Source: Brachybacterium tyrofermentans
Lineage (GTDB): Bacteria; Actinomycetota; Actinomycetes; Actinomycetales; Dermabacteraceae
Assembly (NCBI RefSeq): GCF_014897585.1
Contig: NZ_JABUXW010000019.1
Location: 1-64,000 of the forward strand
Reading direction: 5' to 3'
Length of the DNA stretch: 64,000 bases
Part shown: positions 5,015-53,937 of the stretch, piece by piece
Numbering within the stretch: the stretch's first letter is position 1
Layout: each line of letters opens with the position of its first letter
The notes under the pieces: model-generated
The model's database searches: none
The model's input: only the letters and a program-made list of their open reading frames with translations
What the model was told of the DNA's origin: nothing
Program-made: the position numbers and the translations under genes

Positions 5015-7102
5015 TCAGGGGTGCGGAGCGACGGCCGGGTCGTCCGCGGGGAGCTCGGCGAGCACCGCGGCCACGGCGTCGACCGCCTCCGGGTTCTGCA
5101 GGGACGTGACGTCCCCCAGCGGCTGCGGGGTGCGCCCCGCACGCCGGGCGCGCTCAGCATGGACCAGCTGGGCGAGCAGGCGCCGCATGATCTTGCCGGA
5201 GCGGGTCCGCGGCAGGTCCGGCACCTCGATCACGAAGCGGGGCTTGGCGATCGGCCCGATCTCCGTGGCGACCCGGGCGCGGAGAGCTCCCGGGTCCAGA
5301 GCTGCCGTGCCCGAGGGGATCACGAACACGGCCACGGCCTGCCCGGTGAGCGGGTCCTCGACGCCGGCGGCGCCGACCTCCTGCACCGACCGGTCCGCGA
5401 CCAGCGCGGATTCGATCTCGATGGTGGAGAGCCGATGTCCGGAGACGTTCACGACGTCGTCCAGGCGGCCGAGGATCCAGAAGCAGCCGTCGGCGTCGAC
5501 CGTGGCGGAGTCGCCGGCGACGTAGTAGCCGCCGTGCTCGCCCCGGCCGGCGTAGTCCGCCCAGTAGGAGTCGCGGTAGCGCTCGGGGTCGCCCCACACG
5601 GTGCGCGCCATCCCGGGCCAGGGCCGACGGGCCACGAGCGTGCCGGCCACACCCGTGGGCTGCTCGGCGCCCGCCGCGTCGACGACGGCCATGTCGATGC
5701 CGGGCAGCGGCACGGTCGCCGAGCCGGGCTTGAGGGTGGTCACACCGGGCAGGGGCACGAGCATCGAGGCGCCGGTCTCGGACTGCCACCAGGTGTCGAT
5801 GATCGGCAGCACGCCGCGGCCGAAGGTGCGGTGGAACCACACCCAGGCCTCGGGGTTGATCGCCTCGCCGACGGTGCCCAGCAGGCGCAGCGAGGACAGG
5901 TCGTGCCCGGCGGGCAGCTCGTCCCCGAACCAGCTCATGAAGGTGCGGATCAGGGTGGGCGCCGTGTAGTAGACGGTGACGCCGTAGCGCTCGATGATCT
6001 CCAGGTGCCGCTCGCGGGTCGGCTCGCCGGGGGTGCCCTCGTAGATGACCTGCGTGAGCCCGTTGGAGAGCGGACCGTAGATCTCGTAGGTGTGGGCGGT
6101 GACCCAGGCGAGGTCCGCGGTGCACCAGTGGACGTCGTCGCTCGTCGCGTCGAAGTGCGCCCAGTGCGACCACGAGGTGTGCGTGAGATAGCCGCCCGCG
6201 GTGTGCACGAGACCCTTGGGCTTCCCGGTGGTGCCGGAGGTGTAGATGATGAACAGCGGATGCTCGGCGTCGAAGCTGCGGGCCTCGTGCTGATCGCTCG
6301 CCGTGCCCACGCTCTCGTGCCACCACACGTCGCGGCCCGGGGTCCAGGCGATGTCCTGGCCCGTGCGGCGCACGACGAGCACGTGCTCGAGGTCGGGCAG
6401 GTCGCGGGCGGCGTCGTCGGCCTGGGACTTCACCTCGACGGCCGTCCCTCGGCGGTACTGGCCGTCGGAGGTGACCAGGAGCTTCGCCCCGGTGTCCTGC
6501 AGGCGGAAGCGCACCGCCTCGGCGCTGAACCCGCCGAAGACCAGGGAGTGCACGGCACCGATGCGGGCGCAGGCCAGCGCGATGACGACGGTCTCTACGA
6601 GCACCGGGAGGTACACGACCACGCGGTCGCCGGGCACGATGCCCAGATCCGTGAGGGCGTTGGCGGCCCGGCTCACGCGGCGCTGGAGGTCCTCGTAGGT
6701 GACGGACTCGCGATCCCCTCCCTCTCCCTCGAAGTGCAGGGCGACCTTCGTGCCCCTCCCGGCACGCACGTGGCGGTCCACGCAGTTCTCGGCGACGTTC
6801 AACCGTCCGCCGACGAACCAGCGGGCGGCGGGGACGCTCAGCACGCCGGTCGCGGGATCCGTCGTCGGCGGCTCCCACTCGTGGGCGGTGTGCCAGGGCT
6901 CGGCCCACTCCAGGCGGCGCGCGGCGGCCTCCCAGAAGGCGGTGGGATCCGCCGACGCCGTGGCGTAGATGCTCGCGTCCACGTTCCAGGTCCCCTCGAG
7001 CGCGGGGTCCGGCGCGAAGGCGCGGGTCTCGACCAGTCGGGTCTCGGTCGGTCGGCTCTCAGCCCGTCGAGTTGCGGTCTGTCGGTCCTCGGTGATGCTC
7101 AT
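5015..7102 (-). CDS. acs: acetyl-CoA synthetase (AMP-forming)
   Basis: This 695-residue enzyme activates acetate (or a related short acid) to acyl-CoA through an adenylate. Visible motifs are the ATP loop IIYTSGTTGKPKG, the adenylation motif TWWQSETG, the hinge region GRLDDVVNVSGHRLST, and the C-terminal RSGKIMRR whose lysine is acetylated to silence Acs enzymes. The length fits the Acs family (about 650) with a 45-residue Arg/Thr/Glu-rich N-terminal tail. Its ATG overlaps the ssuC stop by four bases. Acs inside a sulfonate operon is unusual; it may feed acetyl-CoA to homoserine acetylation for MetY or activate a sulfur-containing acid. Confidence 0.9.
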   Translation of the reverse strand: MSITEDRQTATRRAESRPTETRLVETRAFAPDPALEGTWNVDASIYATASADPTAFWEAAARRLEWAEPWHTAHEWEPPTTDPATGVLSVPAARWFVGGRLNVAENCVDRHVRAGRGTKVALHFEGEGGDRESVTYEDLQRRVSRAANALTDLGIVPGDRVVVYLPVLVETVVIALACARIGAVHSLVFGGFSAEAVRFRLQDTGAKLLVTSDGQYRRGTAVEVKSQADDAARDLPDLEHVLVVRRTGQDIAWTPGRDVWWHESVGTASDQHEARSFDAEHPLFIIYTSGTTGKPKGLVHTAGGYLTHTSWSHWAHFDATSDDVHWCTADLAWVTAHTYEIYGPLSNGLTQVIYEGTPGEPTRERHLEIIERYGVTVYYTAPTLIRTFMSWFGDELPAGHDLSSLRLLGTVGEAINPEAWVWFHRTFGRGVLPIIDTWWQSETGASMLVPLPGVTTLKPGSATVPLPGIDMAVVDAAGAEQPTGVAGTLVARRPWPGMARTVWGDPERYRDSYWADYAGRGEHGGYYVAGDSATVDADGCFWILGRLDDVVNVSGHRLSTIEIESALVADRSVQEVGAAGVEDPLTGQAVAVFVIPSGTAALDPGALRARVATEIGPIAKPRFVIEVPDLPRTRSGKIMRRLLAQLVHAERARRAGRTPQPLGDVTSLQNPEAVDAVAAVLAELPADDPAVAPHP

Positions 7103-48902: not shown

Positions 48903-49615
48903 TTACCCCTTTCGGTTCTCCGGGTAGATAGCGCGGTGCAGCCGCGTCCCGGTGTCTGTCAGTAGTTGCAGGATGCGGACGGACAGCCACCGCCAGTTGC
49001 GATGCCAGAGGATGCCGGACGACAGATCGAGGCCGTACACGCTGTGCATGTCGGCCTCGATCAGTACCCAGTGCTTGAGCAGCTGGTGCCAGCTCAGCCC
49101 GCCGCCTTGCGCCCGCCGCCGCTCGTCTTCGCTCGGGTACTCGTACCATTCCCAGAGCCCGGTCGCTTCGTCGTACTCGCCCCGCCCGTACGGGTCGTCT
49201 TTGCCCGTCGCTGCTCCCGGTTGCGGGCCTGTGCTTTTCCCCCCGCAGCCCAGTAGTCCATCGCCGTGTCCTCGTCGTACACGGTCCAGAGCATCGCCGC
49301 CGTCGCCGCGAGCTTGAGCCTGATGTACGAAACGCCGTCGTCCAGCAGCTCCTGGTACTGCTCTCCGAGGACGTCGGGGTACAGGTCCATCTCTTCCGCG
49401 TCGGAGACGATCTGATCGTCAGCGCTGGGATCGTCAGCGCCTCGCGATGCGCGCTCTGCAGCAGAGATGAGCCGCTGCACGCGGAGACCAGTCATCGCGT
49501 CGAGCGGCTGGATCTCGTAGATCTTGCCCCGGTAGGGCAGCTGCAGCGTCTCGTCCTCTGCAGCGAAGTCGTCGTAGTCCTGCATGTCGTTCTTGTCGGT
49601 CATGGCGCGGGCCAT
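48903..49615 (-). CDS. tail assembly chaperone GT, made by -1 ribosomal frameshift
   Basis: This is the frameshift product of the G gene. Translation follows G for 127 codons and slips back one base at GGGAAAA (49241-49235), then continues 110 codons to TAA. The shifted part reads STGPQPGAATGKDDPYGRGE, then further with EYDEATGLWEWYEYPS and LSWHQLLKHWVLIEADMHSVYG, and ends TGTRLHRAIYPENRKG. It is clearly protein-like, has no start of its own, and ends just before the tape measure ATG. The GT fusion of lambda-like phages is needed for tail assembly and absent from the virion. The total is about 237 residues. Confidence 0.88.
49094..49615 (-). CDS. tail assembly chaperone G
   Basis: This 173-residue unshifted product has an acidic helical domain (DDFAAEDETLQLPYRGKIYEIQPLDAMTGLRVQRLISAAERAS, LDDGVSYIRLKLAATAAMLWTVYDEDTAMDYWAAGG) shared with the GT product. 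It then has a 46-residue Lys/Arg/Thr/Gly-rich tail that looks like read-through into a frame not selected for structure. It sits between the major tail and tape measure genes, the fixed place of G in siphoviruses. An ATG five codons in is an alternative start. Confidence 0.85.
   Translation of the reverse strand: MARAMTDKNDMQDYDDFAAEDETLQLPYRGKIYEIQPLDAMTGLRVQRLISAAERASRGADDPSADDQIVSDAEEMDLYPDVLGEQYQELLDDGVSYIRLKLAATAAMLWTVYDEDTAMDYWAAGGKAQARNREQRRAKTTRTGGASTTKRPGSGNGTSTRAKTSGGGRKAAG
49235..49241 (-). promoter_or_regulatory. programmed -1 frameshift slippery heptamer GGGAAAA
   Basis: In the G frame the codons read GCG GGG GGA AAA GCA, so G GGA AAA fits X XXY YYZ exactly. Re-pairing one base back gives GGG AAA and leads into the long open T frame. 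Two overlapping G runs upstream could also contribute. Confidence 0.85.
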
Positions 49616-49650
49616 TCCTTCCAGTCAGTGTGTGAGTGCGTGAGACAGCT

Positions 49651-49718
49651 ACGGCGGGGACGCTGTACGCCCCCGCCGCAGCTGCAGCCGCTACCGGATC
49701 AGTAGCTGGACCGGTAGC
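49651..49718 (-). terminator. two hairpins after the major tail protein gene
   Basis: The first (about 49690-49718) pairs GCTACCGG with CCGGTAGC and covers the 9-codon frame that follows the tail gene stop. The second (about 49653-49676) pairs GGCGGGG with CCCCGCC. Together they probably lower expression of downstream tail genes relative to the abundant tail tube, and the first may also act on translation. Confidence 0.65.
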
Positions 49719-49728
49719 GGTCCGTCAT
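49699..49728 (-). CDS. 9-codon mini reading frame overlapping the major tail gene stop
   Basis: The stop of the major tail gene is embedded in GGGGGAATGA. The ATG opens MTDRYRSSY followed by TGA. A matching frame (MTDLYQASY) follows the major capsid gene in the same context. Either it is translated by re-initiation, or it is a C-terminal extension reached by a -1 slip at the G run. See the finding. Confidence 0.5.
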   Translation of the reverse strand: MTDRYRSSY

Positions 49729-50216
49729 TCCCCCGGCGCTGCCTCCACCGGGTTGTCGATGCGCTCGCGGGCACCGTTGCCGGTCAGCGTGAGCGTCGCG
49801 GTCGACAGAGCAGTGGTGCTGCCGCCGTCATCCGCGAACCCGGCCATTGCTCGGCCCTGGTACGCCTCGTCGCCGCCGTTGCGGTTGTACCAGCGAACGT
49901 GGACGGTGCCGTCGATCCCGAACTGGTCCGAGGCGGCACGCACGATCTCCTGGCCGGGGTCGTACTCAAGCTCGCCCGCAGCGCCGGACTGCTTTCGAGC
50001 GACCTTGACCGAGAGGGACCACGACTGCCCGGTGCGGGTCTGCGAGGTCCAGCCGTCGCTGTCGTAGTCGGAGTCGTCCTCGAGGTTGTCGTCCTTGCCG
50101 GGGGTGAACTCCTGCACGCCCCGGATGGGGAGCCACGAGTCGGCGGTCGGGTCGTCCGCGCCGGGCAGAACCTCGACCTTGAACTTGCGTGCGAGGGTGC
50201 TGATCATGTCGTTCAT
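49725..50216 (-). CDS. major tail (tube) protein
   Basis: This 163-residue protein is beta-rich: ISTLARKFKVEVLPGADDPTADSWLPIRGVQEFTPGKDDNLEDDSDYDSDGW, then SWSLSVKVARKQ and TVHVRWYNRNGGDEAYQGRAMAGFADDGG, ending ATLTLTGNGARERIDNPVEAAPGE. This is the layout of tail tube proteins of actinophages and lies immediately before the tail chaperone genes. It polymerises as hexameric rings around the tape measure. The stop overlaps a mini reading frame, as for the capsid gene. Confidence 0.88.
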   Translation of the reverse strand: MNDMISTLARKFKVEVLPGADDPTADSWLPIRGVQEFTPGKDDNLEDDSDYDSDGWTSQTRTGQSWSLSVKVARKQSGAAGELEYDPGQEIVRAASDQFGIDGTVHVRWYNRNGGDEAYQGRAMAGFADDGGSTTALSTATLTLTGNGARERIDNPVEAAPGE

Positions 50217-50228
50217 CCGTTGTTCTCC

Positions 50229-50663
50229 TTAGAACGGTCGGTACTGCGTGGGGTGGTGGATCTGCAGTCGGTAGTTGTCCGTGCGCTCCCAGCGCCGGTT
50301 CTCGTCCATCCCGAGGCCTGCCCAGGACAGCCGGTGCGCCTCGATGACGGGCACACCGGCGAGAGTGAAGTGCTCCCGGCCCTGCAGCAGCCCGAACAGG
50401 GTGGCCGCGAGGTCGTTCGCATCGTCGGGGTGAGGTCCGGCCCGGAACCGCGCCTGCAGCAGCACGGCACTGTCCGCGAGCGCCGGGTCGTCCTCGGTGC
50501 CGTACACGGTCAGGGCGACCGCCACGTCGTAGCTCTGCGGGAGCAGGCCGACGGTGATGGGGACCTCGCCCGGCTGGTAGATGCCGTCGGGACGCCAGGC
50601 CCCGACGCCAGCTGCCTGCAGCAGCTCAGCGACACCGGCCACGACTGCGCGAGAGGGGTTCAC
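50229..50663 (-). CDS. tail terminator/minor capsid-type protein
   Basis: This 144-residue protein (VNPSRAVVAGVAELLQAAGVGAWRP...) has the pattern of tail terminator (lambda gpU-like) proteins in actinophages, with a central beta sheet (ITVGLLPQSYDVAVALTVYGTEDD). Its GTG start overlaps the upstream gp10-like gene by four bases and it directly precedes the tail tube gene, the normal place of the terminator. Confidence 0.78.
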   Translation of the reverse strand: MNPSRAVVAGVAELLQAAGVGAWRPDGIYQPGEVPITVGLLPQSYDVAVALTVYGTEDDPALADSAVLLQARFRAGPHPDDANDLAATLFGLLQGREHFTLAGVPVIEAHRLSWAGLGMDENRRWERTDNYRLQIHHPTQYRPF

Positions 50664-50998
50664 AGTGCCCCCCTGATCCCGTCCGCGATGATCTGCCGGA
50701 CCTGCTCTTTCTGCTCCTGCAGCGTCAGCTCTAGCCACTTCGCTCGACGACCCTCGTCATGCCGGGCCGTCAGATTCTCGTGCACCGGCACCGCGTAGGG
50801 GGTGTCGTAGGTGACTGCAGCCTGGGTGCCCTCGTCGTTGACGGAGGCGCGCCCGGAGCGCTGCAGCGTCCCTTCCTCGTGCGGGATGCTGCGGTTGGCC
50901 TGTTCGAGCACGTACTCGGCAGCGATAGCCAGCGCTCGGCCCGACGCCTCGCTGACGGCCTTGCCGGGGTCGGCCCCGGCGTTGAACTCGACTTCCAT
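50660..50998 (-). CDS. head-tail joining protein, HK97 gp10-like
   Basis: This 112-residue protein (MEVEFNAGADPGKAVSEASGRALAIAAEYVLEQANRSIPHEEGTLQRSGRASVNDEG) matches the gp10/minor capsid family that sits between connectors and the tail terminator. The pattern SIPHEEGTLQRS...VTYDTPYAVPVHE is typical. It is probably part of the neck. The gene overlaps the terminator gene. Confidence 0.83.
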   Translation of the reverse strand: MEVEFNAGADPGKAVSEASGRALAIAAEYVLEQANRSIPHEEGTLQRSGRASVNDEGTQAAVTYDTPYAVPVHENLTARHDEGRRAKWLELTLQEQKEQVRQIIADGIRGAL

Positions 50999-51011
50999 AG
51001 GGGTCCTCCTG

Positions 51012-51338
51012 TCAGGTCAGCGCGACCTCCGTGTGCGAGGGCAGATCGAGCGGGCGACCATCGCGGCGCGCCCTGCTGATCACGAGCGCGTCACGGTCTT
51101 CGAGGTGGACGATCGAGCCAGGCTTGAACGTCTCCCCGTCCTGCAGAGACACGAACACGGTGGCCTCCGAGGTGGTCTCGGTGCCGTTCTCGTCGCGGAC
51201 CAGCTTCCGGGTCTCGTCGAGGTAGCAGGGCAGTGAGTCGCTGGTGTCGGCGTACACGTCGCCATAGGCCCCGACGCCCACCCAGCTGTCGACCGTGACG
51301 GTGTGCATGAACAGCTCGTCGAGATCTTCGCCGCTCAT
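51012..51338 (-). CDS. head closure (stopper) protein
   Basis: This 108-residue protein (MSGEDLDELFMHTVTVDSWVGVGAYGDVYADTSDSLPCYLDETRKLV) is a small beta-barrel protein of the head-tail adaptor/stopper class. The TSDSLPCYLDETRKLVRDENGTE and DGETFKPGSIVHLEDRDALVIS segments are typical. Its ATG overlaps the upstream connector gene by four bases (ATGA). Confidence 0.8.
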   Translation of the reverse strand: MSGEDLDELFMHTVTVDSWVGVGAYGDVYADTSDSLPCYLDETRKLVRDENGTETTSEATVFVSLQDGETFKPGSIVHLEDRDALVISRARRDGRPLDLPSHTEVALT

Positions 51339-51760
51339 CCCGTCACCTCGATCCGCGTATTCGGCAGAGCGCCCCGCAGAATCGTGGTCGCGAGGTCGCA
51401 CAGCTCGGTGAGCGCTGCGACCAGATCCATCTCGGACCGCTCGGACACCTCGTATCCCAGCGATGCTGAGCCGATGCTCTTGGACGTCACCCGCGCCTGG
51501 CGAGTGAGCCCTGCGACGCCGAGGTCGGGGTCGATCCCGAGACGATGCCAGAGCGCCGCCTGGGCGCACGTAGCGTCGCGGAATGCCTGCCGCACCGTCG
51601 GGTCGAGCGGATAGCAGTCCTCGTCGACGCTGTAGAGCGCCGAGATGAGTGCATCGTCGACGCGATGCGAGGCAGCTCGCAGCAGACGCTCCGGGGACTC
51701 GATGGGCTTCTCCCACTGGTCCCACTCGTTCAGGTCCTCCGCTGTCGCGTAGACGCGCAC
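51335..51760 (-). CDS. head-tail connector (adaptor), gp6-like
   Basis: This 141-residue, mainly helical protein (VRVYATAEDLNEWDQWEKPIESPERLLRAASHRVDDALISALYSVDEDCYPLDPTVRQAFRDATCAQAALW) has the form of HK97 gp6/lambda gpW-like adaptor proteins that close the portal ring. The GTG start has AGGAGGTG upstream. The 149 bases between it and the collagen-like gene hold no other gene. Confidence 0.8.
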   Translation of the reverse strand: MRVYATAEDLNEWDQWEKPIESPERLLRAASHRVDDALISALYSVDEDCYPLDPTVRQAFRDATCAQAALWHRLGIDPDLGVAGLTRQARVTSKSIGSASLGYEVSERSEMDLVAALTELCDLATTILRGALPNTRIEVTG

Positions 51761-51909
51761 GAGGCACCTCCTGTCGTGAGTGTGTGCGGGCTGGGGGGGG
51801 TGACGAGGCGCGCTGCAGCCCATGACAGCCGGGGAAGGGATCACCCGACCGGTCTGCAGCTCACGAGGCCCGCAACTCGTGTTCACGCCCCGCCACCCAG
51901 ATCAGGGGG

Positions 51910-52236
51910 TCAGGCCTCGGGCTCGAGCGCCGTCACGCGGGCGACCAGGGCGTCCCAGTCCTCCTGCGAGGGCGCTCCGTCCTTGCCTGCGGGGCCGGTC
52001 GCGCCCTTGGCACCGTCCTTGCCCGCAGAGCCGGTCGCGCCCTTAGCGCCGTCCGCGCCAGCCGGACCCTCGGGACCCTCGGGACCCTCGGGACCCTCCG
52101 GGCCGGGCGTCAGCTCGACGCCGTCCACGTTGGTCCGTGCCTCGACGATCGCCGCCCGGATCTTGTTGTGATCCGCGACGTGCGTCTCTGCACCCTCGAC
52201 CGCCTCAGCGGGAAGGGGTGCCTTCCAGTCAGCCAT
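51910..52236 (-). CDS. collagen-like repeat protein behind the major capsid gene
   Basis: This 108-residue protein has a helical N-terminus (MADWKAPLPAEAVEGAETHVADHNKIRAAIVEARTNVDG) and about 14 collagen-type Gly-X-Y triplets (GPEGPEGPEG, GADGAKGATGSAGKDG, GATGPAGKDG), then a short helix. Such triplets trimerise and occur in tail fibres and capsid decoration proteins. Between the capsid and connector genes it is most likely a head decoration or head fibre protein, an inference from position. Confidence 0.75.
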   Translation of the reverse strand: MADWKAPLPAEAVEGAETHVADHNKIRAAIVEARTNVDGVELTPGPEGPEGPEGPEGPAGADGAKGATGSAGKDGAKGATGPAGKDGAPSQEDWDALVARVTALEPEA

Positions 52237-52283
52237 GCTTGGCCGTCCTTTCCTGTCGTGCTGTCAGAGGTGGAGCGCAGCCC

Positions 52284-52316
52284 CTACCAGGCGGGCGTCA
52301 GTAGCTCGCCTGGTAG
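52284..52316 (-). terminator. hairpin after the major capsid gene
   Basis: A 10-bp perfect stem CTACCAGGCG/CGCCTGGTAG encloses a 13-base loop. One arm lies inside the 9-codon frame that follows the capsid stop. Its counterpart after the tail tube gene has a different stem sequence with matching compensatory changes. Confidence 0.75.
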
Positions 52317-52327
52317 AGGTCTGTCAT
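52298..52327 (-). CDS. 9-codon mini reading frame overlapping the major capsid gene stop
   Basis: The capsid gene ends in TCGGGGGAATGA; the ATG inside the stop opens MTDLYQASY and TGA. Six of nine residues equal the frame after the tail tube gene (MTDRYRSSY). It is either a re-initiated micropeptide or a frameshift tail on the capsid protein. Confidence 0.5.
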   Translation of the reverse strand: MTDLYQASY

Positions 52328-53172
52328 TCCCCCGACGCATCTCCGAGGGTGCCGACCAGCACGCCCTTGTCGGACAGACGCTTCACCGCGTAGTGCATCG
52401 TGGTCACGACGTCGGTGGAGCGGGCGAGCGCGTGACGCTCGGTCTCGACCAGCGGGCGACGCTTGTACAGCAGCCCCAGCGCCTGGTTCTTGACGACCAG
52501 GAACTTGCCAGCCTCGACCCGGTTCGTGGTGAACACCGGCACGCCGCCGATGATGCCGATCTGACCGCGCCGGACCACGGACTCCGCGCCGAGCTTCGCA
52601 GCGTTGACGAACTGGTCATCACGGAACGCCTGCGCCTGCTGCGCGGCGTTGATGTACACGCCCGCGAAGTCCTCGGGCTCCCACTCGTCACCGAAGGTGG
52701 CGATGCCGTCGACCATCGCGTCCCAGCCGAACGCCTCGGACGTGGTGGTCGCGGACAGAGGCGAGCCGTTGCCGCCCCCGGTGGCCTGGGCTGCGGTGAT
52801 CAGATCCGCGTCGACCTTGCGAGCCGCGAGCAGCGCGAACTGCCGACGCGCCTCAGCCTCGGGATCACCGAGACCGACGAGACGGGAGCGGTCCGAGATG
52901 GACACGCCCTTACCGGCCTCCTTGATCTTCGCGGTGCTGTCCTTCGTGGTCAGCTTCTCCGGCGTGATCGCCGCGCCCTCGGTGAGATCGTCCAGCTCGC
53001 TGAGCGCGCCCCACTTCGGGAAGTGGATCGTGTCGCCGGGCTGGCCTTCGAGGGTGCTGTCCTCCTTCACAGCCGGGGAGCCCGCGACGCGAACCTTGCC
53101 CTCGAACTCGGCCTGGGCCATGTCCCCGTAGACCTCGGGGACGATCATGTCTGCGCTGGTGGTCTGTGCCAT
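52324..53172 (-). CDS. HK97-fold major capsid protein, N4 gp56-like family
   Basis: This 282-residue protein (MAQTTSADMIVPEVYGDMAQAEFEGKVRVAGSPAVKEDSTLEGQPGDTIHFPKWG...) has the P-domain and A-loop pattern of HK97-fold capsids of the N4-gp56 type. It has GVYINAAQQAQAFRDDQFVNAAKLGAES and GGVPVFTTNRVEAGKFLVVKNQALGLLYKR near the end. There is no prohead protease domain, consistent with a separate scaffold gene upstream. Its stop context and hairpin are shared with the tail tube gene. Confidence 0.9.
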   Translation of the reverse strand: MAQTTSADMIVPEVYGDMAQAEFEGKVRVAGSPAVKEDSTLEGQPGDTIHFPKWGALSELDDLTEGAAITPEKLTTKDSTAKIKEAGKGVSISDRSRLVGLGDPEAEARRQFALLAARKVDADLITAAQATGGGNGSPLSATTTSEAFGWDAMVDGIATFGDEWEPEDFAGVYINAAQQAQAFRDDQFVNAAKLGAESVVRRGQIGIIGGVPVFTTNRVEAGKFLVVKNQALGLLYKRRPLVETERHALARSTDVVTTMHYAVKRLSDKGVLVGTLGDASGE

Positions 53173-53184
53173 GTTGGCTTCTCC

Positions 53185-53937
53185 TTACTTGCTCGCCGCG
53201 AGGCGGCGGTACGTATCCGGGTCCGATGCGTACAGCTCATTTCGCTGCTGCATCGTCATGTCTCGGAACTTCTCCTGCGTGATCGCGCCGTCACCGTCAC
53301 CTCCGGTGAAGTCAGCGCTGCTGCGTGCCGCCGCCTGGGTGGACGCAAGATAGGGATTCGTCTTGACCTCATCCTCGATTGCCGCCGCCAGGGCGTCGCT
53401 GTCGGTGGGGTCAAGGCCCTTAACTCGCTCATGGAACGAGTTGGTATTGAGAAGGCGGGCCGGGTCGGCGTTCTTGCCGGGCGCTGCGCGGAACACGGCC
53501 AGCTCGACGCGAGCGGCGCGGGCGTCGGCCTCGGCCTGCTCGCGGGCTGCTGCAGCTGCCTGCACCGGGTCCTCGTTCGAGCCCTCGTCCGGCTCGATGC
53601 CTGCAGCCTTGAGGATCGCCTGGACGCGCTCGTCGGCCTCGGTCTTCGCGGCGTCGCGCTCGGAGCGGTAGCGGCCCGAGTCGTCCCGGCCACGGCGCAG
53701 CTCGCGCTGTGCCCAGTCGGGCAGCTCTTCGACGGTCTGCGCCTCGGTCACGCCAGAATCGCTCTGTGCGCGCTCGTGAACCTCTCGGGGCGTAGGAGTG
53801 CTGCCCTGCTCTCCCGATCGATCCTGGCCGCTGTTCTGTGCTTCCTGGCCGTCGTTCTGCTGCTGGCTGCTCTGCTGCTGCGCCTCAGCGCTCTGCTGCT
53901 GCTGGCCGTCCGTGCTCTGCGGGTCGTCGTTCGGCAT
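53185..53937 (-). CDS. capsid scaffolding protein
   Basis: This 250-residue, highly charged, Gln- and Ala-rich protein has an N-terminal Gln/Ser-rich stretch (GQQQQSAEAQQQSSQQQNDGQ) and a long helical coiled-coil centre (AQRELRRGRDDSGRYRSERDAAKTEADERVQAIL). The C-terminus is amphipathic and basic (ITQEKFRDMTMQQRNELYASDPDTYRRL), as in scaffolds that bind capsid. It directly precedes the capsid gene. The ATG with AGGGAACC was chosen. Confidence 0.88.
   Translation of the reverse strand: MPNDDPQSTDGQQQQSAEAQQQSSQQQNDGQEAQNSGQDRSGEQGSTPTPREVHERAQSDSGVTEAQTVEELPDWAQRELRRGRDDSGRYRSERDAAKTEADERVQAILKAAGIEPDEGSNEDPVQAAAAAREQAEADARAARVELAVFRAAPGKNADPARLLNTNSFHERVKGLDPTDSDALAAAIEDEVKTNPYLASTQAAARSSADFTGGDGDGAITQEKFRDMTMQQRNELYASDPDTYRRLAASK

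Follow-up and report, generated by a model that had tools for sequence, protein, structure and literature searches.

The window analyzed here, a 64,000-nucleotide stretch of Brachybacterium tyrofermentans DNA (positions 1 to 64,000 of contig NZ_JABUXW010000019.1, assembly GCF_014897585.1), contains a major capsid gene and a major tail (tube) gene that are late genes of a siphophage-like prophage and that both terminate in GGGGGAATGAC (GGGGGAA TGA C) on the minus strand, followed in the -1 frame by related nine-codon frames within a hairpin. We propose that programmed -1 frameshifting probably tags a minority of surface subunits at these junctions. Each site would be a programmed -1 frameshift signal that ends a high-copy, surface-exposed virion gene: most ribosomes would terminate at the zero-frame stop, and a minority, held at the stop with the hairpin just ahead, would shift backward by a single nucleotide, on G_GGG_GAA or G_GGA_AAA, and append a nonapeptide of the form [MI]Txx[YV]xxx[YVI]. 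A small number of subunits in both the capsid and the tail tube would then end in one common short peptide, in many cases joined through a linker rich in Gly and Ser, and this peptide may act as a docking handle that joins a neighboring small fiber to head and tail. That slippage occurs, and how frequently, we infer from sequence comparison; the reading is supported by the slip motif, the -1 register, the hairpin, the occurrence of the peptide on several protein families, the linkage to a fiber gene, and an in-frame version of a second tag (class B, described below).

The capsid gene (52324..53172, minus strand; phrog_544, E 4.8e-62) has a zero-frame product ending GDASGE and its stop at 52324-52326. 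The slip site with the stop, GGGGGAATGACAGA (G_GGG_GAA, TGA, C; 52320..52333, minus strand, exact match), overlaps the -1 frame tag MTDLYQASY and its TGA (52298..52327, minus strand), and a hairpin of 18 pairs (approximately 52278..52323, minus strand) spans tag codons 2-8 with its 3' arm extending past the tag stop. Similarly, the tail gene (49725..50216, minus strand; phrog_3884, E 4.5e-45; stop 49725-49727) has a product ending EAAPGE, the exactly matching slip site and stop GGGGGAATGACGGA (49721..49734, minus strand), the tag MTDRYRSSY with its TGA (49699..49728, minus strand), and a 15-pair hairpin over the tag codons (approximately 49685..49724, minus strand), whose 3' arm also passes the tag stop. 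Relative to shuffled sequences, the capsid end folds at z -4.6 (71-nucleotide region) and -4.7 (62-nucleotide region), and the tail end at z -3.5 and -2.3 respectively. An earlier, sequence-only reading of this DNA had described both frames, their GGGGGAATGA overlap and stems, the identity of the two genes, and the six of nine residues common to the two tags, all of which we find as described; its claim that only these two genes of the window carry the element agrees with an exact-match search, which returned two copies. The linked fiber gene and the spread of the element to other phages go beyond what that reading had observed. In the late genes of the window, both codons of the slip site are in the minority for their amino acid: GGG makes up 23% of Gly codons (n=385) and GAA 17% of Glu codons (n=237).

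A search for the frame after the capsid and tail genes of other phages, as the earlier reading had suggested, brought the total, window included, to 18 distinct cassettes in 11 phages, referred to here as class A (nonapeptide [MI]Txx[YV]xxx[YVI] in the -1 frame). These counts were made after merging duplicates (contigs L001, L002, L003, L004, L054, L055, L056, L057, L058, L069, L070, L071, L072, L074, and L075 in our numbering) and region copies (L087, L088, L090, L091, L093, and L094). The carriers are six major head proteins (phrog_544, 10, 777, and 283), two head decoration proteins (phrog_122), and ten major tail proteins (phrog_3884, 117, 792, 2491, and 476); relatedness among these families was detectable between 544 and 283, and between 117 and 476. 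In seven phages head and tail are both tagged, the head copy being on the capsid protein in the window, Brevibacterium, L065, L066, and L090, and on the decoration protein in L063 and L064. L067 has a capsid copy on a contig that stops inside the tail gene, and L059 is a short fragment.

These cassettes came by several routes. A pattern scan of IMG/VR gave 11 contig stretches; the copies in every one of them close an open reading frame (ORF) at least 116 codons long and are accompanied by a hairpin. Of the four stretches returned by a species-genome scan, one is real, that of Brevibacterium sp. 68QC2CO, whose capsid and tail genes both carry the cassette; the others (L051-L053) were read as chance, as they fold less strongly and the frames before them are 10, 70, and 5 codons long. 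A fiber-protein search added one further phage type. An order-wide scan allowing one mismatch matched 1 of 396 genomes, the source genome itself, and a reversed control pattern matched none of the same 396; within the host family the cassette occurs in 1 of 47 genomes, again only the source, and a longer pattern run over the whole 4.6-Mb genome found no copies beyond the two of the window. Further, the capsid end GDASGE differs from the ends of its 42 IMG/VR relatives (37-69% identity), which are without such a motif. The earlier reading had named absence of the frame and hairpin from closely related phages, together with absence of any extended or micropeptide product, as the outcome that would speak against it; the first half is what we find, since the fetched stretches of the 42 capsid relatives contain no GGGGGAATGA at any place on the strand of the capsid gene. 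None of these 42 contigs is among the 12 of the fiber search described below. A loose nine-codon filter applied to them, limited to the plus strand and to folds below -18, picked out four matches, none tag-like; one of the four lies at a capsid end (L010, LTPGRRRRR).

The motif GGGGGAATGAC is invariant in 17 of the 18 class-A cassettes. The remaining copy, on the capsid gene of the L068/L090 phage, reads GGGAAAATAAC (TCG GGA AAA TAA C), which contains the canonical slip sequence G_GGA_AAA (GGGAAAA); its -1 frame is ITARVKATI followed by a stop, its hairpin has a z of -3.3, and the tail gene of the same phage is followed by MTARVSATV and a stop. Its junction codon is ATA, and therefore no start codon is present there. 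Bases that would re-pair after a -1 shift thus precede the zero-frame stop as G_GGG_GAA in 17 and as G_GGA_AAA in 1 of the 18 sites. UGAC is a weak stop. The tag lies at -1 relative to the structural gene in all 18 copies; the search patterns left the frame of the upstream gene free, and the constant register arises because that gene always ends at this very stop. Relaxing the G run to purines while keeping the tyrosine codons returned the same 11 contig stretches and none new. Two copies were found by routes other than the patterns; they have V/V and V/I at positions 5/9 and the same length. A looser filter (an ORF of at least 90 amino acids, a stop then C, nine -1 codons with T second, and neither slip motif nor tyrosine specified) recovered the cassettes of 15 stretches and only two other matches, which are unrelated and fold more weakly than most cassettes. 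The upstream proteins often end in Gly/Ser-rich sequences, e.g., GGGSGE, GGDGSGE, and GGDEGGATGE, as would be expected for a linker before a tag.

A hairpin is present at all 18 class-A sites, its stem starting a few bases 3' of the slip site, where a stimulator would be expected. For the first 17 copies (the set covered by the fold range and by the arm, codon, and swap analyses, the L068/L090 capsid copy being the 18th), z ranges from -2.3 to -8.3. Two or more types of Watson-Crick pair occur in 19 of the 21 columns that make up the 5' arm, with partners mostly past the tag stop; the hairpin is thus kept although its sequence changes. Because the column pairs derive from each sequence's own fold, we also swapped arms between families, and the native arms outpaired every cross-family swap in 10 of 17 cases. 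Strong hairpins between genes could also be RNA elements only (terminators, processing sites, or stability elements) with the reading frame incidental, which we consider extremely improbable: neither a terminator-like site nor an Rfam family above threshold was found in 49000-53200, the -1 register holds in 18 of 18 copies, and a change of slip motif leaves the peptide in place. A sub-threshold Rfam match to CcsR1 at 49646-49718 (20.3 vs. 65.3 bits) was taken as chance.

Besides the tag itself, a gene for a small fiber-like protein with the N-terminus MA[DET]W lies 26-62 nucleotides after one cassette copy in 9 of the 11 class-A phages. In the window it is a collagen-like gene (51910..52236, minus strand; Collagen PF01391 and family alignments) 61 nucleotides past the capsid tag stop, and collagen-like repeats are present in the fibers of the window, L063, and L068. 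A monomer model of the fiber N-terminal domain is extended to residue 19 and helical from 20 to 42 (mean predicted local distance difference test score, pLDDT, 79). When IMG/VR was searched with the family of the fiber N-terminus, 12 contigs representing seven phage types were confirmed among 105 candidate stretches, and in all 12 the cassette lies directly upstream of the fiber gene; eight were already known, and the other four, which represent a single phage type, had escaped the preceding pattern scans. The MADW N-terminus had no match at E 0.01 among 50,697 records of isolated phages, and the longer Brevibacterium fiber gave only a weak match as query, to Rhodococcus phage Weasels2. The peptide could in principle be the hitchhiker of a mobile fiber gene cassette that inserts after structural genes, as the phages Rousseau and Madeline (see below) have the tag end, the ribosome-binding site, and the fiber start as one common block. 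We regard this as highly improbable, since second copies without a fiber (window tail, L090 capsid, Rousseau tail, Dumbo capsid, and the L063/L064 decoration genes) keep the motif.

A second tag, class B (xPGxxx[FYI]PGxxx[FYL]P, 17-20 codons), drawn from isolated Brevibacterium, Mycobacterium, and Gordonia phages, was reached by way of a weak DNA match to Brevibacterium phage Rousseau, an isolated siphophage (PMC9331655). The Rousseau capsid gene ends in GGGGGAATGAC with MTDPGNATFPGLTTYPGGN and a stop in the -1 frame, and its tail gene (phrog_117) ends in GGGGGAATAAC with ITGPGVNFFPGPDSFPV and a stop in the -1 frame. The gene 3' of the capsid is again collagen-like and has another N-terminus, W-x-NG-x-x-GGTPITAAELNRIE, which matches 68 Mycobacterium and 52 Gordonia records (E up to 1), most over 27 residues. 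Thirteen of these phages were opened (Madeline, Sidious, Ohgeesy, Zirinka, Trax, Dumbo, DrDrey, Thresher, Teaspoon, Terminus, Kumao, Dori, and Forza), and in all 13 the fiber follows the tail gene, which carries a class-B tag at -1; the Forza carrier, gp89, is a phrog_792 tail protein. In Dumbo, DrDrey, Thresher, and Terminus the capsid is tagged too, with identical tags. Used as a tblastn query at E up to 10, the tail tag of Dumbo matched 187 places in 122 records, duplicates included; among the best 60 of the 187, 57 overlap genes annotated as major tail protein or subunit and three overlap hypothetical genes (in Forza and two similar phages). Annotation of the tagged genes in the opened records stops at the zero-frame stop. 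The tag is missing from PhorbesPhlower, which is related to the Rousseau capsid at 66%. The major tail gene of Rousseau (L095, OV696622.1, 7333-7920) is itself unannotated, an opposite-strand gene, ROUS_13, covering part of it.

All ten class-B sites analyzed are at -1, and nine of ten fold at z -2.0 or lower. The tail genes of Dumbo, Madeline, Sidious, Kumao, and Dori end in C_CCU, which has been tested in E. coli and is a slippery -1 tetramer there if combined with a downstream pseudoknot (PMC4066793). In Dori, the class-B tag is also present in frame at the C-terminus of the capsid pentamer protein (FPGETNFPGSSNFPSGG), where the RNA folds without a marked hairpin (z -1.2 and -0.2); a copy on so scarce a subunit would fit a tag that is meant for a minority of subunits only. 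Mask, Mao1, and Sejanus match the Dori peptide, in one frame or another, under the pentamer gene. Teaspoon (L105), a relative of Dumbo, keeps the tail tag and has none on the capsid, and its capsid end, at 2007, has a strong hairpin.

The earlier reading had left two possibilities side by side, a -1 slip that adds a common tail and termination followed by reinitiation, in which ribosomes would stop at TGA, restart at the overlapping ATG, and release a free nine-residue peptide. Reinitiation would suit the ATGA overlap found at 17 of the 18 class-A sites. The comparison nevertheless favors frameshifting and makes restart very unlikely, because the L090 capsid keeps the peptide despite its ATA junction, because the -1 frame is devoid of ATG, GTG, and TTG at 5 of the 10 class-B sites (Rousseau tail, Dumbo capsid, Kumao, Dori, and Forza), and because the Dori pentamer has the tag fused in frame. 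The Gly/Ser-rich upstream ends also suit a fusion.

Glycans occur on the C-termini of capsid and tail-tube subunits in some mycobacteriophages, and a genuinely frameshifted tag could have such a job, as a glycosylation substrate or for weak binding to the host surface, in place of fiber docking. Two glycosyltransferase-type genes in the late region of Forza (L109, 12401-14334, a glycosyltransferase and an N-acetylglucosaminyltransferase, near the tagged gene) would suit this, as would the proposal that immunoglobulin-like (Ig-like) extensions bind carbohydrate. However, a search of the source genome for Glycos_transf_2 (PF00535, the only such family searched) placed all 17 matches on other contigs and none in the window, the neighbor of the cassette is a fiber gene, and the tag class changes with the fiber type; we therefore consider another job rather unlikely. 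Docking of the neighboring fiber is our best guess because the tag is on outer, high-copy subunits, often with a linker, because a fiber gene is present, and because the tag class tracks the fiber N-terminus; on this evidence we hold the docking role to be an evenly balanced proposition.

Several observations weigh against the proposal of frameshift tagging and fiber docking. First, G_GGG_GAA is not a canonical X_XXZ_ZZN heptamer, and in E. coli the G_GG.G signal has been credited to a Shine-Dalgarno-like effect instead of slippage (PMC4066793); because G_GG.G is not counted as slippery in E. coli, the majority of class-A sites may rely on their hairpin and on the context of the stop. Second, the patterns imposed the nine-codon length and the tyrosines at positions 5 and 9 for 16 of the 18 copies, and the ATG forced by GAATGA would also allow reinitiation at 17 of the 18 class-A sites. 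Third, some of the hairpins are less distinctive than the rest: those of win_tail, Brevi_tail, and L065_tail are beaten by some arm swaps, the four short ones of L063/L064 (post-stop arms) pair no better than the average swap, Forza gp89 folds at z -0.4, and, of the eight control ends that lack a tag, one, that of the Teaspoon capsid, reaches z -4.7. Fourth, head tags are often missing. L073 and L060 are tagged on the tail and have capsids (phrog_10 and 283) untagged in either shifted frame, the capsids of L087 and L089 lack the tag, no -1 capsid tag is present in Teaspoon, Madeline, Zirinka, Sidious, Ohgeesy, Trax, or Kumao, and the hexamer genes of Dori and Forza have no class-B tag. Finally, the fiber profile was itself built from fibers that adjoin cassettes, and, with 8 of its 12 contigs already known, the fiber search is therefore only a partly independent test; no fiber is found in the records L059 (6 kb) and L060 (16.7 kb), which are possibly fragments, and the two fiber N-terminal domains (class A vs. 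class B) are not significantly similar (probability 1.7%, E 0.029).

Two further sequences may be mentioned separately. The tail assembly chaperone gene of the same operon (49094-49615) contains a GGGGGGAAAAG run at window positions 49234-49244 on the minus strand, from which the -1 frame stays open to a long end (through WHQLLKHWVLIEADMHSVYGLDLSSGILWHRNWRW to RKG and a stop), as in the classic gpG/gpGT type of frameshift. In L064, after position 6763, the fiber gene itself ends SGE and is followed by CGGCGAATGATAGACCCC; a long inverted repeat is present there, and the -1 frame begins MIDPYAGW, which is possibly a degenerate third cassette.

Frameshifting at the ends of virion genes has precedents. 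In Lactobacillus phage A2, the frameshifted proteins are reportedly the capsid and tail proteins. The earlier reading had likened the window to Listeria phage PSA, a fair comparison; according to a review, Listeria phages A118, A500, and PSA and Lactobacillus phage A2 make a C-terminally different second product by -1 or +1 slippage, two -1 cases being on major virion proteins of A2. Those systems resemble ours in that capsid and tail genes give a second product by slippage, but their extensions are mostly Ig-like domains in varying frame, whereas those described here are of 9 (class A) or 17-20 (class B) codons and are not Ig-like or FN3 domains, are alike on both proteins and across phages, lie always at -1, and are linked to a fiber. 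SPP1 has a minority frameshifted tail subunit, gp17.1* (gp17.1 to gp17.1*, 3:1), and a collagen-like trimer, gp12, on its capsid; unlike here, a +1 shift adds 87 residues with an FN3 domain, and gp12 binds sites on the capsid surface, with no shared tag named in the passages on it. The frameshift in T7 gene 10 is said to be in the -1 direction. That capsid gene also yields an extension that is not Ig-like, but it is a single gene, and the passage on it mentions no tail counterpart. Ig-like domains on phage structural proteins, the subject of Fraser 2006, offer a further parallel. Such domains are promiscuous C-terminal additions to diverse virion proteins, but they are folded and occur in any frame, in contrast to the short -1 peptide with its stem-loop. 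A full-text literature search, with subscription papers outside it, returned no report of a shared short -1 tag on capsid and tail across phages.

Taken more broadly, these cassettes could belong to a general tag-and-adaptor system of actinobacterial siphophages, an idea we advance tentatively and at somewhat short of even confidence. A slip at the stop codon would put a handle on a fraction of the capsid or decoration subunits and of the tube subunits, one small fiber would dock to both head and tail, and at least two cognate pairs, namely the nonapeptide with the MADW domain and xPGxxxFPGxxxFP with the GGTPITAAELN domain, would have been swapped among phages, with the tag placed in frame on the scarce pentamer of Dori. 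If this is true, the frameshifting of capsid and tail genes would have a common purpose, to set the dose of a shared attachment handle. It would also suggest that the C-termini of major virion proteins have been missed in up to 122 phage records (13 opened), including those of routinely grown mycobacteriophages, and the short peptides might find use as handles for display on phage heads and tails.

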